64,000 nt of DNA from positions 134,001 to 198,000 of the forward strand of contig NZ_KE148312.1 in NCBI RefSeq assembly GCF_000238055.2, given 5' to 3'. Position 1 is the stretch's first letter; each line of letters opens with the position of its first letter. The notes under the pieces are model-generated. The model ran no database searches, was not told the DNA's origin, and saw only the letters and a list, made by a program, of their open reading frames with translations. The stretch comes from Oribacterium parvum ACB1. GTDB taxonomy: Bacteria; Bacillota; Clostridia; Lachnospirales; Lachnospiraceae. A program made the translations under genes and the position numbers. Positions 8,950 through 16,421 of this stretch are shown here, piece by piece.

Positions 8950-9636
8950 ATGGAAAAACTTGCTCGGTCCCTATTGGAAGAGTTAAATGTAGAGACTGCC
9001 TTTACGATACCGGTTTTCGGAGGCATTCCTATTTCGGAATCGGTATTTGTGACATGGATTGTCATGGCGGTCTTGATTCTTGCAGCTTTTCTTTTAGGAA
9101 GGAACTTACGTGTTCGAAATCCGGGGAAGAGGCAACAGATTGCGGAGCTGATTGTGGTAAAACTGGACGCTTTTACGAAAGGAACTCTCGGAGAGGAAGC
9201 GGCTGGGTACAGCACTTATATGGCATCGGTACTCCTTTTTATCGGGTTTGTGAATTTGACCGGTATTTTCGGCATGAAACCGCCGACAAAGGATTTAAAT
9301 ATTCCGGCAGCCCTTGCCGTAATGAGCATTGTTTTGGTGGAAGCGGCAGGAATCCGAGCGTTTGGGCTTGGAGGATGGATGAAACGCTTTACAAAGCCTA
9401 TGGCAATCCTTACCCCCATTAATATCTTGGAGATATTTATCAGACCACTTTCTCTATGTATGCGTCTTTTTGGAAATGTTCTTGGCGCATTCGTTATCAT
9501 GGAACTGGTGACCTTAGTGGTTCCGGTAGGGGTACCGGCCATATTATCCCTATACTTTGATGTTTTTGACGGTCTCATCCAGGCTTATGTCTTTGTCTTT
9601 TTGACCTCGCTCTATATTGCGGAGGCAGTGGAGTAA
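8950..9636 (+). CDS. atpB: ATP synthase Fo subunit a
   Basis: The stationary ion-channel subunit of the F1Fo ATP synthase in the cytoplasmic membrane. The 228-residue protein has five or six hydrophobic helices and the signature RPLSLCMRLFGN, in which Arg172 is the essential stator arginine facing the c-ring carboxylate; the C-terminal helix with DVFDGLIQAYVFVFLT is also typical. There is no atpI in front. It is the first gene of a run of seven (a, c, b, delta-alpha, gamma, beta, epsilon). An unusual 208-bp gap with a short tandem repeat separates it from atpE. Confidence 0.95.
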   Translation: MEKLARSLLEELNVETAFTIPVFGGIPISESVFVTWIVMAVLILAAFLLGRNLRVRNPGKRQQIAELIVVKLDAFTKGTLGEEAAGYSTYMASVLLFIGFVNLTGIFGMKPPTKDLNIPAALAVMSIVLVEAAGIRAFGLGGWMKRFTKPMAILTPINILEIFIRPLSLCMRLFGNVLGAFVIMELVTLVVPVGVPAILSLYFDVFDGLIQAYVFVFLTSLYIAEAVE

Positions 9637-9844: not shown

Positions 9845-10060
9845 ATGACAGCAATAGGAGCAGCAATAGCAGCATTGGCATGTATTGGAGCAGGTTTATC
9901 CATTGGTCTTGCAACCGGAAAGGCCACAGAGGCGGTAGCAAGACAGCCTGAGGCCAGTTCCAAGATTATGACTATTTTACTTTTAGGATGTGCCCTCGCG
10001 GAGGCAACCGCAATCTACGGATTCGTTATCGGCTTAATGATTATTCTCTTCTTAAAGTAA
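9845..10060 (+). CDS. atpE: ATP synthase Fo subunit c
   Basis: The rotor-ring subunit. The 71-residue hairpin has two glycine/alanine-rich helices joined by the ARQPE loop. The ion-binding carboxylate is Glu53 in [12 protein letters not shown]. Sodium-type rings such as Ilyobacter carry Ser right after this Glu; here it is Ala, so proton coupling is more likely, although the Gln of ARQPE and the following Thr are kept. AGGAGTGTGAATT precedes the ATG. Confidence 0.95.
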
Positions 10061-10096: not shown

Positions 10097-10585
10097 ATGC
10101 TAAGCCTTGATTTAAGAACTTTTATTTTTACCGTGATTAACGTTCTTGTGCTGGTGTTTTTTCTGTACCGCTTTTTGTTTAAGCCGGTTCGGGAAATTCT
10201 TGTAGCTAGACAGAATGAGTTGGATAACTCCTATAGAGAAGCGGAAGAAGCAAATCAGAAGGCCAACGCCTTAAAGAAGCAGTATGAAGATACCATGGCG
10301 CAGGTTGACGCGGAACGCCAGGAAAAGCTCGAGAAGACCAGATTGCAGGCAACGAGCGAGTATGATGAAATTATAGGAAATGCCAGAGAAAAGGCGACGA
10401 AGATTATTGCCGATGCAAAGATAGAGGCTGAGAGGCAGGCAGAGCAAAAGCAACACGAGATGGAAGAGGAAGTGGCTATGCTTGTGGCAAAGGCTGCCTA
10501 TAAGATTGCGGCAAGCAAGGATTCCGTGGAGAATAACCAGAAGCTTTACGACACTTTCCTAGAGGATGCAGAGAAGAAAGGGTAA
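10097..10585 (+). CDS. atpF: ATP synthase Fo subunit b
   Basis: The peripheral-stalk subunit. The 162-residue protein has an N-terminal membrane helix (about residues 9-28), then a long charged dimerising helix with the conserved KPVREILVARQNEL junction and the NAREKATKIIADAKIEAERQ segment. Subunit delta normally sits on its C-terminus; here the next gene, six bases downstream, encodes delta fused to alpha, so the stalk top is tied covalently to the F1 head. The start follows TAAGGAGGAAGAGG. Confidence 0.95.
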   Translation: MLSLDLRTFIFTVINVLVLVFFLYRFLFKPVREILVARQNELDNSYREAEEANQKANALKKQYEDTMAQVDAERQEKLEKTRLQATSEYDEIIGNAREKATKIIADAKIEAERQAEQKQHEMEEEVAMLVAKAAYKIAASKDSVENNQKLYDTFLEDAEKKG

Positions 10586-10591
10586 AGGATT

Positions 10592-12613
10592 ATGCTGCAA
10601 AAAGTCAGTGATTATGCACAACAGCTTTATAAAATGCATGTTCCCAACAGTGAAATCGAGGAAACCAGTCGCATTTTTGAAGTTTTACCGGAAACAGCGT
10701 CTCAGTTGTCTGACCCTACTGTTCCCTTGGAAAATAGACTGGCCATAATCGACAGTATTTTTCCTACAGAAGTAAGGGATATTTTAAAGGTTTTATGTCA
10801 GAATGGCTTGCTAGGCTCCTGGATGGATATTGCCGATGAATACCGAAGGGTTTCCGAAGAGGAGTCCACAAAGTTAAGTGTGCGCCTTCGTTATGTAACA
10901 AAACCGGAGGAAGAGCAGTTAAAGCGAATCCGGACTTTTGTCTATAATAAATACCATACACGCAATATTGAAATGAGACTCGAAGAGGATGCTTCCTTAG
11001 GCGGAGGCTTTATTCTTGAGGTGGGCAATGACCAGTATGACTGGAGTACCAAGGGCAGAAGACAACAGTTTCTCGATGAAGTAATGAGTAAGCGTCTCGG
11101 TGGAAGCAGTCAGGATATCGTGAGTATCCTGCAAAGTTCGGTAGACGATTTCGACCTGAAAGCGGAGAAGAAGGAAATCGGTTTTGTCAGTTCCGTAGGA
11201 GACGGCATTGTGGTTATCAACGGACTGGACCACGCCATGTATGGAGAGGTGGTTGTATTTGATAACGGTGTCCGCGGTATGGTGCAAAATATTGAAAGAA
11301 ATCGTATCGGCGTCATCCTCTTTGGAGAGGAAGAGGGAATCGTGGAAGGCAGTCGTGCCGTTCGTACCAATAAAATGGCGGGTATTCCCGTGGGAGATGC
11401 CTTCCTTGGAAGAGTTGTGGATGCCCTCGGAAATCCGATTGACGGCGAGGGAGAAATTGTTACTCGGGATTATCGCCCGATTGAGCAGCCTGCACCCGGA
11501 ATTATTGATAGAAAAACGGTCAATGTTCCTTTGCAGACCGGTATTTTGGCGATTGATTCCATGTTCCCCATCGGTAGAGGACAGAGAGAGTTAATTATTG
11601 GGGACAGACAGACCGGAAAAACATCCATTGCAATGGATACCATTTTGAATCAAAAAGGGAAGAACTGCCTTTGTATTTATGTGGCAATCGGACAGAAGGA
11701 GTCCACCATTGCGGCACTTGTCGAGAACTTAAAGAAGCATGATGCCATGAGCTATACCTGCGTCCTTGCGGCGACAGCGGCTGATCCGGCACCGATTCAG
11801 TATATCGCGCCCTATGCGGCAACCTCCCTTGCGGAGTACTTTATGTACGAGGGGAAGGATGTGCTCATTGTTTATGACGACTTAAGCAAGCATGCAGTAG
11901 CCTACCGTGCACTTTCTCTTCTTTTGGGAAGAGCTCCCGGTCGTGAAGCCTATCCCGGAGATGTATTCTACCTGCATTCTCGCCTCTTAGAGCGCTCCTG
12001 CCGTCTTTCTGATGAGCTTGGCGGAGGAAGTATCACCGCTTTACCGATTATTGAGACCCAGGACGGTGATGTTTCCGCTTATATTCCGACGAATGTCATT
12101 TCCATTACAGACGGACAGATTTTCCTGGAGAGTAATCTCTTTTTTGAGGGGCAGCGTCCTGCAGTTAATGTAGGACTTTCCGTTTCCCGTGTAGGCGGTG
12201 CGGCACAGACGAAAGCCATGAAGAAGGCAGCCGGATCTCTTCGTATCGACCTTGCACAATATAGAGAAATGGCGGTATTTACCCAGTTCTCCTCCGACCT
12301 CGATGAGAGCACAAAAACCCAGCTTACGCAGGGGGCGATTCTTATGGAGCTTTTAAAGCAGCCTCTGGGAAGACCGCTTTCCTTAGGAGAACAGGTGGTG
12401 ACCCTTGTTCTGGCTCTTCATAAAGAATTTTTGGACGTAGATAAGAAAGAGGTCAAGAGCTTGCAGAATCGAGTTCTTCAATATTTTGAAGAGAAAGAGC
12501 CGGATGTATTACGCAATATCGAGATTTCCGGAATGCTTGCAGACGACCTTGTAGAGCAGATTATTTCCGTTTACCATGACTTCCGGAAGAAAGAGGCGGA
12601 AGAACAATCATAA
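10592..12613 (+). CDS. atpA: Fused ATP synthase delta-alpha subunit
   Basis: A single open frame of 673 residues encodes two normally separate F1 subunits. Residues 1 to about 170 are subunit delta (OSCP/AtpH): the helical N-terminal bundle, then the C-terminal domain with the typical LGGGFILEVGN and STKGRRQQFLDEV segments. Alpha starts around residue 180 (SILQSSVDDFDLKAE, then GFVSSVGDGIVVINGL) without its usual free N-terminal Met. The P-loop GDRQTGKT is at 337-344, followed by IYVAIGQKEST, the DDLSKHAVAYR region, and the VGLSVSRVGGAAQ arginine-finger region. There is no stop, frameshift or internal start with a ribosome site at the junction. It is a genuine fusion if the assembly is right. 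Confidence 0.93.
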   Translation: MLQKVSDYAQQLYKMHVPNSEIEETSRIFEVLPETASQLSDPTVPLENRLAIIDSIFPTEVRDILKVLCQNGLLGSWMDIADEYRRVSEEESTKLSVRLRYVTKPEEEQLKRIRTFVYNKYHTRNIEMRLEEDASLGGGFILEVGNDQYDWSTKGRRQQFLDEVMSKRLGGSSQDIVSILQSSVDDFDLKAEKKEIGFVSSVGDGIVVINGLDHAMYGEVVVFDNGVRGMVQNIERNRIGVILFGEEEGIVEGSRAVRTNKMAGIPVGDAFLGRVVDALGNPIDGEGEIVTRDYRPIEQPAPGIIDRKTVNVPLQTGILAIDSMFPIGRGQRELIIGDRQTGKTSIAMDTILNQKGKNCLCIYVAIGQKESTIAALVENLKKHDAMSYTCVLAATAADPAPIQYIAPYAATSLAEYFMYEGKDVLIVYDDLSKHAVAYRALSLLLGRAPGREAYPGDVFYLHSRLLERSCRLSDELGGGSITALPIIETQDGDVSAYIPTNVISITDGQIFLESNLFFEGQRPAVNVGLSVSRVGGAAQTKAMKKAAGSLRIDLAQYREMAVFTQFSSDLDESTKTQLTQGAILMELLKQPLGRPLSLGEQVVTLVLALHKEFLDVDKKEVKSLQNRVLQYFEEKEPDVLRNIEISGMLADDLVEQIISVYHDFRKKEAEEQS

Positions 12614-12625
12614 AGGAGGCATATT

Positions 12626-13531
12626 TTGCCTACAACAAGAGAACTAAGAGATCGAATCGGCAGCATTGATAATACGATGAAGATTACCAATGCGATGTAT
12701 CTGATATCCAGTACGAAGATGCGTAAGGCGAAGGCGGAGCTGGCCCAGACAGAGCCGTATTTTTACACCCTGCAGTCTATGATTGCGCGTGTTATGCGAC
12801 ATTTGCCCGAAGAGTATACACACCCCTTTCTGGATTCAAGAGAGGGAACAGCCGAGGGAGAAGGTAAGGTTGCCATCATCTGCGTTACGGCGGATAAGGG
12901 ACTTGCCGGCGCCTATAATCACAATGTTATTAAAGAGACGGAGGAGCTTTTAAAGCAATATAAAAACAGCCGACTTTTCGTAGTAGGTGAGATGGGGCGA
13001 AGTTATTTTCATACAAGGCGGATTCCGATTGATGAAACCTTTCGCTACACGGCGCAGAATCCGACACTCCATAGAGCGAGAGTTATTACCAGAAAGATGC
13101 TGGAGCTTTTTCAGAATAGAGAAATTGATGAGCTCCATATTGCTTATACCAGGATGAAGAGCTCTTTAGAGATGGAAAGCTTGGGGGAGCAGCTTTTACC
13201 TTTAGATAAGTTGCACCCCGTCTTTGTGAAAGTGCCGATAACGGCGAATTACGAAGCTTTTAATATTTTCCCGAGTCCGGATGCCTTGATGGAAAATGTT
13301 ATTCCGGACTACTTAAACGGCTATATCTACAGTGCTCTCGTAGAGTCGTTTTGTGCGGAGCAACATGCCAGAATGACCGCGATGGATTCGGCGAATCGAA
13401 ACGGAAATGAACTGAAGCAGAAGCTTCGCATTCAGTACAATCGTGTGCGTCAGGCACAGATTACACAGGAAATCACGGAAATTGCTGCCGGAGCCAAGGC
13501 ACAAAGGGCTGCAAAGGCGAAGAAAAAATAG
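12626..13531 (+). CDS. atpG: ATP synthase F1 subunit gamma
   Basis: The rotating central shaft. The 301-residue protein has the conserved N-terminal helix TRELRDRIGSIDNTMKITNAMYLIS, the Rossmann-like middle with VTADKGLAGAYN, and the C-terminal helix with ARMTAMDSANRNG, the QYNRVRQAQITQEI signature and an Ala/Lys-rich tail. It initiates at TTG (12626), with AAAGGAGG about seven bases upstream; no ATG fits. The TTG start may tune gamma to one copy per complex. Confidence 0.94.
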   Translation: MPTTRELRDRIGSIDNTMKITNAMYLISSTKMRKAKAELAQTEPYFYTLQSMIARVMRHLPEEYTHPFLDSREGTAEGEGKVAIICVTADKGLAGAYNHNVIKETEELLKQYKNSRLFVVGEMGRSYFHTRRIPIDETFRYTAQNPTLHRARVITRKMLELFQNREIDELHIAYTRMKSSLEMESLGEQLLPLDKLHPVFVKVPITANYEAFNIFPSPDALMENVIPDYLNGYIYSALVESFCAEQHARMTAMDSANRNGNELKQKLRIQYNRVRQAQITQEITEIAAGAKAQRAAKAKKK

Positions 13532-13550: not shown

Positions 13551-14942
<1,392 letters not shown>

Positions 14943-14953
14943 AGGAGTTCCTT

Positions 14954-15379
14954 ATGATGCGAGGAAATGAAGGCCTGTTCAGTGCAAAGGTTATCGCAAC
15001 GAACAAGGTCTACTATGATGATAAACTTCGGTATCTGAATGTTCGAACATTGGATGGACAGATTGGCTTTATGGCGCACCATGCTCCCATCGTCGTTGCG
15101 GTGGAAATTGGTGTACTGGATGCCCAGAAGCCGGACGGCTCTTGGGTACATGTTGAGGTCGGGAAGGGCATTTTACAATTTGCCAATAACCGTCTGACGC
15201 TTCTTGTAGACACTTTGGAGACAAAGGAAGAGATGGATATTCGAAGAGCCGAGGAAGCGAAGGAGAGAGCCGAAGAGGAGCTTCGACAGAAGCAAAGCTA
15301 TATGGAATATAAGAAATCGCAGGCTGCGCTGGCAAGAGCCTTGGGAAGACTGGAATTTTATAAGAAGACCTATTTATAA
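14954..15379 (+). CDS. atpC: ATP synthase F1 subunit epsilon
   Basis: The regulatory shaft subunit, 141 residues. The N-terminal beta-sandwich contains LNVRTLDGQIGFMAHHAPIVVAVEIG, and the C-terminal helical hairpin (RRAEEAKERAEEELRQKQ) is the part that can inhibit ATP hydrolysis. Two ATG codons stand side by side at 14954 and 14957; AAAGGAG precedes both. It closes the ATP synthase operon. Confidence 0.92.
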   Translation: MMRGNEGLFSAKVIATNKVYYDDKLRYLNVRTLDGQIGFMAHHAPIVVAVEIGVLDAQKPDGSWVHVEVGKGILQFANNRLTLLVDTLETKEEMDIRRAEEAKERAEEELRQKQSYMEYKKSQAALARALGRLEFYKKTYL

Positions 15380-15710: not shown

Positions 15711-16421
15711 ATGAATAAAGAAGAATCTGAGAAAAAGATAGAGGATCTGGTTTTACTGGGCTACCCGGGCATCTCGGGTAGCCGCTTTTTATGGGAAAAA
15801 GGAAATGCACTTCCCTTTTCCGCACGTTACCAAAAAGAAGAGAGACAGCGAATAGAGGACTTGCCCCGCCTTTTTTGGAAGGAGAAAACGCTTTCTTTTT
15901 CCGCGGAAAATATCTATCTTTTTACAGATAAGGAGAGAAACGGAGAAGCTACCCCTCTTTATGAGAAGGATATCCGGGCAAAGGAAAATGCAGGAGAAAT
16001 TAAAAGAGGAAAGATAGAGGATTTGTTTCCCGGCTTTGCAAGTGATTTTTCTCTAAGCGAAGTTTTACCTCTTGGGAAGGGAGGAATTCTTGCCGGCTTA
16101 GGAGAGATTGGAGGGGGAGGACTTTCCTTCTCCTACAGTAAGATTTCTTTCTTGCAAAGTACCATCGAGCTTTGCGAGCATTTTCAGCTTTCCCCTTATG
16201 CACTTCACTCGAAAGGCGCCTTTCTTCTTCGCCTTGAAAGGGGAGAGGACTTTGCAGGTCTTGCAAGAGAAAAGGGAATAGAGGCGAGCTGCATCGGGCG
16301 CTTTCATGAAGAAAAAAAGCGGATTCGGAAGGATGAGTACGGAGAGTCTTATCTCTATAAACAGGAAAGGGACAGCTTGGAGGAGATTTTCACAAAAGAG
16401 GAAACAGGGATACTTACATAA
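15711..16421 (+). CDS. AIR synthase-related protein (HypE/PurM C-domain-like), N-terminus degenerate
   Basis: A 236-residue protein. Its C-terminal half (about 115-215) has the pattern GGILAGLGEIGGGG, then IELCEHFQLSPYALHSKGAFLLRL and AREKGIEASCIGRF. This is the AIR-synthase C-terminal fold used by HypE, PurM and the so-called hydrogenase maturation factors of Lachnospiraceae. The N-terminal ATP-binding half of that superfamily is much shortened and highly charged here, and no catalytic cysteine tail of HypE is present. I would call it a divergent member with unknown substrate. No hydrogenase genes are nearby. A terminator follows. Confidence 0.55.
   Translation: MNKEESEKKIEDLVLLGYPGISGSRFLWEKGNALPFSARYQKEERQRIEDLPRLFWKEKTLSFSAENIYLFTDKERNGEATPLYEKDIRAKENAGEIKRGKIEDLFPGFASDFSLSEVLPLGKGGILAGLGEIGGGGLSFSYSKISFLQSTIELCEHFQLSPYALHSKGAFLLRLERGEDFAGLAREKGIEASCIGRFHEEKKRIRKDEYGESYLYKQERDSLEEIFTKEETGILT

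Follow-up and report, generated by a model that had tools for sequence, protein, structure and literature searches.

How can an ATP synthase whose F1 part holds three alpha subunits and a single delta be assembled when delta and alpha are synthesized as one protein? The locus examined here, carried by a 64,000-nucleotide stretch of the Oribacterium parvum ACB1 genome (hereafter the window), raises this question, and the preliminary description of the window was right to see in it a puzzle of stoichiometry. The gene concerned (10592..12613, plus strand) is a single open reading frame that starts with ATG and encodes 673 residues, delta first and then a complete alpha subunit. The reading frame, Pfam and TIGR00962 agree on this uninterrupted passage from one complete subunit into the other, as had been claimed. 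PF00213 (OSCP) covers residues 9-159, that is positions 13-167 of the 172 in the profile, with 66.4 bits against a cutoff of 22.3; downstream lie the beta-barrel (ATP-synt_ab_N, 194-260), the nucleotide domain (ATP-synt_ab, 317-532) and the C-domain (ATP-synt_ab_C, 539-664) of alpha. The atpA model TIGR00962 matches residues 173-668 with 740.8 bits against a curated cutoff of 484.45. TIGR03324, the model of the N-ATPase alternate alpha, reaches 589.3 bits, below its cutoff of 750.5, and does not place the fusion among the N-ATPases.

The protein can be divided into four parts, all on the plus strand. The delta N-terminal domain (residues 1-88; 10592..10855) and the delta C-terminal domain (residues 89-160; 10856..11071) were delimited with HMMs of the two delta halves, the second also by alignment, and residue 88 was chosen as the boundary for building these models. 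In known enzymes the C-terminal half is the one that binds b; its DWS motif is invariant across 16 aligned fused rows. A linker of about residues 161-172 (11072..11107), variable among aligned relatives, leads into alpha (residues 173-673; 11108..12610), delimited by the TIGR00962 match and by the alignment, in which the alpha N-terminal helix region is preserved downstream of the joint.

The fusion occupies the expected place in an F-type ATP synthase operon with all subunits adjacent, in the order a-c-b-[delta-alpha]-gamma-beta-epsilon on the plus strand. Upstream lie the genes for a (8950..9636, 228 aa, PF00119), c (9845..10060, 71 aa, PF00137) and b (10097..10585, 162 aa, PF00430), and downstream those for gamma (12626..13531, 301 aa, TTG start, PF00231), beta (13551..14942, 463 aa, TIGR01039) and epsilon (14954..15379, 141 aa, PF02823 and PF00401). 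By the Na+ ligand pattern of c subunits, the c subunit is presumably of the H+ type. Directly after the operon, a 236-aa open reading frame (15711-16421) has no Pfam match at E 0.001.

The delta-alpha fusion is genuine, conserved and widespread. No in-frame stop interrupts 11,090-11,140, and the sibling genome G178 also passes through this joint within a single frame (687 aa, 71% identity). The nearest named relative among the best 80 of 578 confirmed relatives, Oribacterium sinus DSM 17245, is 85% identical in the joint region and 90% identical over alpha, beta and gamma. The search of Lachnospiraceae genomes that had been proposed as a check bears this out, since matches to a profile of the joint cross it stop-free in at least 75 of 397 genomes of the family: 27 full fusions, as set by frame length and alignment start with the full fusion as query, 46 that are shorter or lack the N-domain, and two at contig ends. 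In the scan of the class (391 genomes), a hand count finds 20 from outside the family, spread over 12 family codes, that do likewise; the frame of one of them is short, lies close to the end of a contig and is probably cut. At the level of the phylum (398 genomes), G663 and three genomes of family f32 cross the joint outside the family, and G588 is cut at a contig end. Because the same joint is found in frame in so many relatives, a stop or frameshift missed in a single assembly is excluded, in agreement with the initial claim; sequencing or assembly error would have to recur across many independent assemblies, and its probability is practically negligible. Many bacteria of the gut, mouth and rumen make one of their ATP synthases with delta and alpha as a single protein.

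With the full fusion as query, 322 of the 397 family genomes gave a match, and the relatives fall into three frame-length classes among the matches listed. These correspond to three states: separate genes, the full fusion of the window, and a fusion that lacks the delta N-domain (the partial class). Twenty loci aimed at each class were fetched and annotated alongside the window, which gave 61 family loci comprising 19 full fusions, 20 fusions without the N-domain and 22 pairs of separate genes. A second set, the best 80 of the 578 confirmed relatives from the genome scan, holds 55 full fusions, 24 without the N-domain and one separate locus. The two sets overlap through identical rows (L080/L109, L081/L115, L047/L149, L044/L175). 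The classes are sharply split: with delta-half HMMs made from full and separate rows, and scores printed for the named and partial rows, the N-domain of the family and named loci scores at least 73 bits or is absent at E 0.01. It is absent from 20 of the 61 family loci and, leaving aside L131 and L177, from 22 unbroken fusions of the best 80 in the overlapping named set. Full fusions occur in O. sinus DSM 17245, Pseudobutyrivibrio ruminis DSM 9787, Butyrivibrio fibrisolvens 16/4 and Agathobacter ruminis JK623; Catenisphaera adipataccumulans DSM 25799 and the Lachnospiraceae bacteria MA2020, KH1T2 and NK3A20 lack the N-domain. L131 and L177 are N-domain-less fusions with an intact joint whose frames break at different places further inside alpha, for which sequencing error and decay are both possible; at first labelled separate by the script, they were kept out of the trees and of the start-signal count.

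In the mycobacterial b-delta fusion, delta stays at one copy per enzyme. As in the window, delta is there covalently joined to another F-ATPase subunit; the partner, however, is b, whereas in the window b is a separate 162-aa gene and no b-delta protein is encoded. The PDB chains 7jg5_d and 9vkp_d, named b-delta, give weak matches to the delta part of the window protein. The ordinary F-ATPase of Lachnospiraceae resembles that of the window in its orthologous operon, with alpha subunits 68-72% identical, and differs in having two genes, alpha being provided with its own start and Shine-Dalgarno sequence (23/23). The preliminary description named the mycobacterial protein as the known fusion; it leaves out a delta-alpha precedent, both engineered and natural in Acidaminococcus (PMC12229609).

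According to Ueno et al. 2025 (PMC12229609), the single delta of ordinary enzymes is kept central on the alpha-beta ring by its N-domain, and its C-domain is the part that binds the b dimer. These authors deleted the delta N-domain of the Bacillus PS3 enzyme and fused the C-domain to alpha. In their report, stalks and a subunits averaged about two per engineered FoF1, with up to three stalks seen by cryo-electron microscopy; the H+/ATP ratio was 5.8 instead of 3.0, and ATP was synthesized at lower proton motive force. In their argument, an N-domain sitting on the symmetry axis restricts the enzyme to one stalk. The same authors name natural similar fusions without the N-domain, in Acidaminococcus fermentans and under UniProt G4Q3K6 and A0A1I2C5T3. 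The engineered protein is like that of the window in that a short linker connects the delta C-domain in frame to the N-terminus of alpha, and it is present as three fused chains per F1. It differs in being engineered and in having lost both the delta N-domain and, as did its control, the epsilon C-terminal domain (PMC12229609), whereas in the window the delta N-domain is present and epsilon has both of its Pfam domains. On the delta side, it is the N-domain-less relatives of the window that match the design. The Acidaminococcus fusion, compared here by its description, is natural like that of the window, and is reported without the N-domain (PMC12229609) where the delta of the window is full-length. 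The chain 9jc1_I of the PDB is named as a fusion of delta and alpha; its alignment with the window protein runs through the joint, over residues 101-649, and its name and length make it probably the entry of Ueno et al. Of the full-length form and of the repeated loss of its N-domain we found no report in the open-licence literature. Among titles and abstract openings of that literature, nothing relevant to delta-alpha fusions or natural multi-stalk enzymes was found beyond PMC12229609. A comparison of 62 butyrivibrio genomes states that all F0F1 subunits are present, and the part of its text consulted does not contain the word "fused" (PMC4478896).

One way out of the stoichiometric puzzle would be a mixture, in which one fused chain joins two free alphas obtained from internal initiation or from a second operon. 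An in-frame GTG (11120..11122, plus strand) preceded by a four-nucleotide AGGA could serve as an internal start, so that the earlier statement that the junction holds no internal ribosome site is not literally correct; the signal is nonetheless not conserved. Around the alpha start, a start codon with a Shine-Dalgarno sequence of at least five nucleotides is present in all 23 separate-gene loci, against 2/75 full and 2/42 partial fusions, and the combined 4/117 shows no enrichment over control windows inside alpha (90/1053), these counts including identical rows and four cut contigs. A second operon does exist in the genome of the window (2.47 Mb, 99.86% complete), where an ordinary F-ATPase, whose delta (179 aa) and alpha (506 aa) are encoded by two genes, could offer free subunits; the alphas of the two operons are 55% identical. 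This second operon (L009 3291-9867, contig C1 about 1,609,290-1,615,866) lies beside genes that we read as rnf, and its c subunit is presumably of the Na+ type by the same ligand pattern; a search for the V/A-type subunit D family found nothing. In some relatives no such source was found. In G178 (same genus, 99% complete) the fusion is the only OSCP match. No other OSCP match was found in 8 of the 20 N-domain-less genomes (G062, G277, G293, G137, G130, G043, G079 and G249, of which G277 is 82% and G137 81% complete and the other six 97-99%), so that the alpha-linked C-domain is the only delta found there; the remaining 12 have a second, separate delta, as in the second operon. A hand count among the matches listed gave a single alpha at E<=1e-110 in 11 of 27 full-fusion genomes and in 9 of the 20 fetched N-domain-less genomes, some of them incomplete and one, G380, with a second delta. 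Mixed subunits, proposed at the outset as a solution, thus lack general support; in genomes with no delta found besides the fusion, hybrid hexamers are unlikely, and we regard the mixture as very improbable.

Proteolysis after synthesis, the other solution proposed at the outset and likewise without general support, would restore an ordinary alpha and delta, provided that the surplus delta is destroyed. In its favour, the linker, which counted from the DWSxxGR motif spans 15-30 residues across relatives, is variable and may be flexible. The alignment shows no conserved motif or site within it, and a specific protease site seems unlikely because the linker varies in both length and sequence. 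In the relatives without an N-domain, moreover, a released C-domain would lack its clamp and cutting should uncouple the enzyme. Cleavage is accordingly improbable in our estimation, albeit a little less so than a mixture.

We lean towards an uncleaved polypeptide, in which all three alphas carry delta, the covalent tether replaces the clamp, and more than one stalk becomes possible. Each F1 would then contain three alphas, three delta C-domains and three delta N-domains. With a C-domain already tied by the linker to each alpha, the clamp provided by the N-domain would no longer be essential. In the enzyme of the window, one N-domain would most likely occupy the central site and the other two would be displaced or mobile. 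Tethering with three delta C-domains, the clamp being no longer needed and further stator sites opened, is the most economical mechanism. A tether that makes the clamp non-essential would explain the repeated loss of the N-domain in relatives.

The changes of state were counted on several trees. A 154-row phylogeny built from alpha, beta and gamma, the distant f32 group included, requires 21 changes for the N-domain-less state, 16 of them forced by the starred branches. A site-mixture model applied to 79 of these rows, picked by hand, gives 19 changes with 12 forced; 85 hand-picked rows with more outside families give 17 with 16 forced, and 34 rows hand-picked to hold sister pairs give 12 with 11 forced. 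With the last set, a tree that unites the N-domain-less rows in a single clade is rejected, its lnL being 1269 lower (p 1.5e-40). Judged from these phylogenies, the N-domain-less state arose repeatedly, with 11-16 forced changes. The counts are of state changes, of which regain by recombination would lower the share of losses; we take them for losses, since without recombination a homologous domain could not be regained. Of the sister loci L127 (full) and L137 (partial), the second lacks 219 bases within the N-domain, cleanly and in frame; four other pairs are too diverged for a clean gap edge. Relocation of the N-domain within the operon was considered and ruled against by b length, locus scan and genome scan: b keeps its length in N-domain-less operons (medians 161-166 aa) and the HMM finds no other N-domain match in the 20 fetched N-domain-less loci. 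L214, without an alpha match on its cut contig, was dropped before the rows were compared; the cut contigs L110, L123, L154 and L173 were left out of the 154-row tree and the rates and kept in the class and start-signal counts.

Re-splitting of the fused gene, for which the 154-row tree, with a separate-gene clade nested within the fusions, might be invoked, was not retained: a single clade of all fusions among the 79 rows is compatible with the data (AU p 0.101), and the rows added in the 85-row tree mix separate and fused loci further. The f32 loci L211-L213 are distant and probably represent an independent N-domain-less fusion. The c subunit of L211 carries a Q...ES pattern, presumably of the Na+ type. 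These loci may correspond to the Acidaminococcus fusion mentioned by Ueno et al.

In full fusions, the retained N-domain is under constraint. The ratio of N-domain to C-domain identity in full fusions is about equal to that in separate deltas at matched alpha identity. Among 20 close pairs of full fusions, the N-domain had a median dN/dS of 0.092 (15 usable pairs) and alpha one of 0.045 (15); the C-domain gave 0.050 (14) and the linker 0.193 (12). Neither the identity ratios nor dN/dS showed any relaxation of selection on the N-domain. By these sequence comparisons, the N-domain of full fusions is under purifying selection and still does something; over evolutionary time it is dispensable, though selected in full fusions.

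How many stalks an uncleaved enzyme would hold is a further matter. Since a C-domain able to bind b would be present on every alpha, peripheral stalks beyond the first could attach, each with its own a subunit; by analogy with the engineered enzyme, extra stalks would raise the H+/ATP ratio and permit ATP synthesis at low proton motive force. Extended to its full form, this leads to natural multi-stalk synthases in anaerobic Clostridia, with a b2-a stator per alpha and a subsequent deletion of the symmetry-breaking N-domain in many lineages, convergent with the engineered high-H+/ATP design. The Oribacterium enzyme would then be a form still carrying its three N-domains. We put this extension forward tentatively: it is possible, and the conservation and selection of the N-domain in full fusions weigh against it, as an N-domain on the axis allows a single stalk only by the reasoning of Ueno et al. 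The same conservation favours an enzyme with three delta domains and one stalk, where two deltas would be idle and the fusion neutral or helpful to assembly. So do the single a and single b genes of the operon and the ribosome-site energies of b, which are not raised in fused operons. This one-stalk enzyme seems rather unlikely to us all the same. Repeated loss of the N-domain arrives at the very layout of the engineered multi-stalk enzyme, and that construct departs from its control by fusion and N-domain deletion, the sections of the report at hand describing no change in a or b (PMC12229609).

Should more than one stator be present in the fused enzymes, the accepted plan of ATP synthase with one a and one stalk would not hold everywhere, and anaerobes whose life is close to the thermodynamic limit would have increased H+/ATP by adding stators and not by enlarging the c-ring. 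Even with one stalk, the repeated loss of the N-domain constitutes a natural experiment on its role. The occurrence of the full fusion in named species, such as O. sinus DSM 17245, P. ruminis DSM 9787 and B. fibrisolvens 16/4, makes these predictions testable.

The expression signals of the a and b genes were compared with an approximate choice of start codons. The ribosome site of b is not stronger in fused operons, and with the same approximation the site of separate alpha comes out stronger (-13.1) than that of the fused gene in the full class (-8.5) or the partial class (-8.1). On the side of a, an ACG stands as the apparent start after a Shine-Dalgarno-like stretch in 21 of 29 separate rows (L060-L072, L075-L079, L088, L148 and L245) and in 6 of 107 fused rows (L085, L086, L143, L169, L044 and L175). 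The count leaves out the outgroups except L215 and L228, as well as L211-L213, L238, L239 and rows in which the start of a is ambiguous. Most other a orthologs, that of the window included, have ATG, TTG or GTG at this position. All 27 codons are ACG, yet ACG makes up 18.7% of the threonine codons when the alpha, beta and a genes of these loci are counted; in 13 of the 27, no canonical in-frame start lies upstream. ACG may act here as a weak start that keeps a low; a shift lowering a in the separate class would fit more a subunits in the fused one, the rows not being phylogenetically independent. Higher synthesis of a in fused operons was nevertheless not retained as a result, the contrast coming from two independent pairs and being confounded with phylogeny. 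A search of the open-licence literature found nothing relevant on an ACG start of the a gene.

A last observation concerns the Fo part of some relatives. L210, L231-L237 and L240 are N-domain-less fusions of other clostridial families whose F1 falls inside the fused clade of the 85-row tree. Their Fo differs, with a 23-30% and c 36-45% identical to the subunits of the window, and six a subunits compared within this group are 51-61% identical to each other, which looks like a mixing of F1 and Fo modules.
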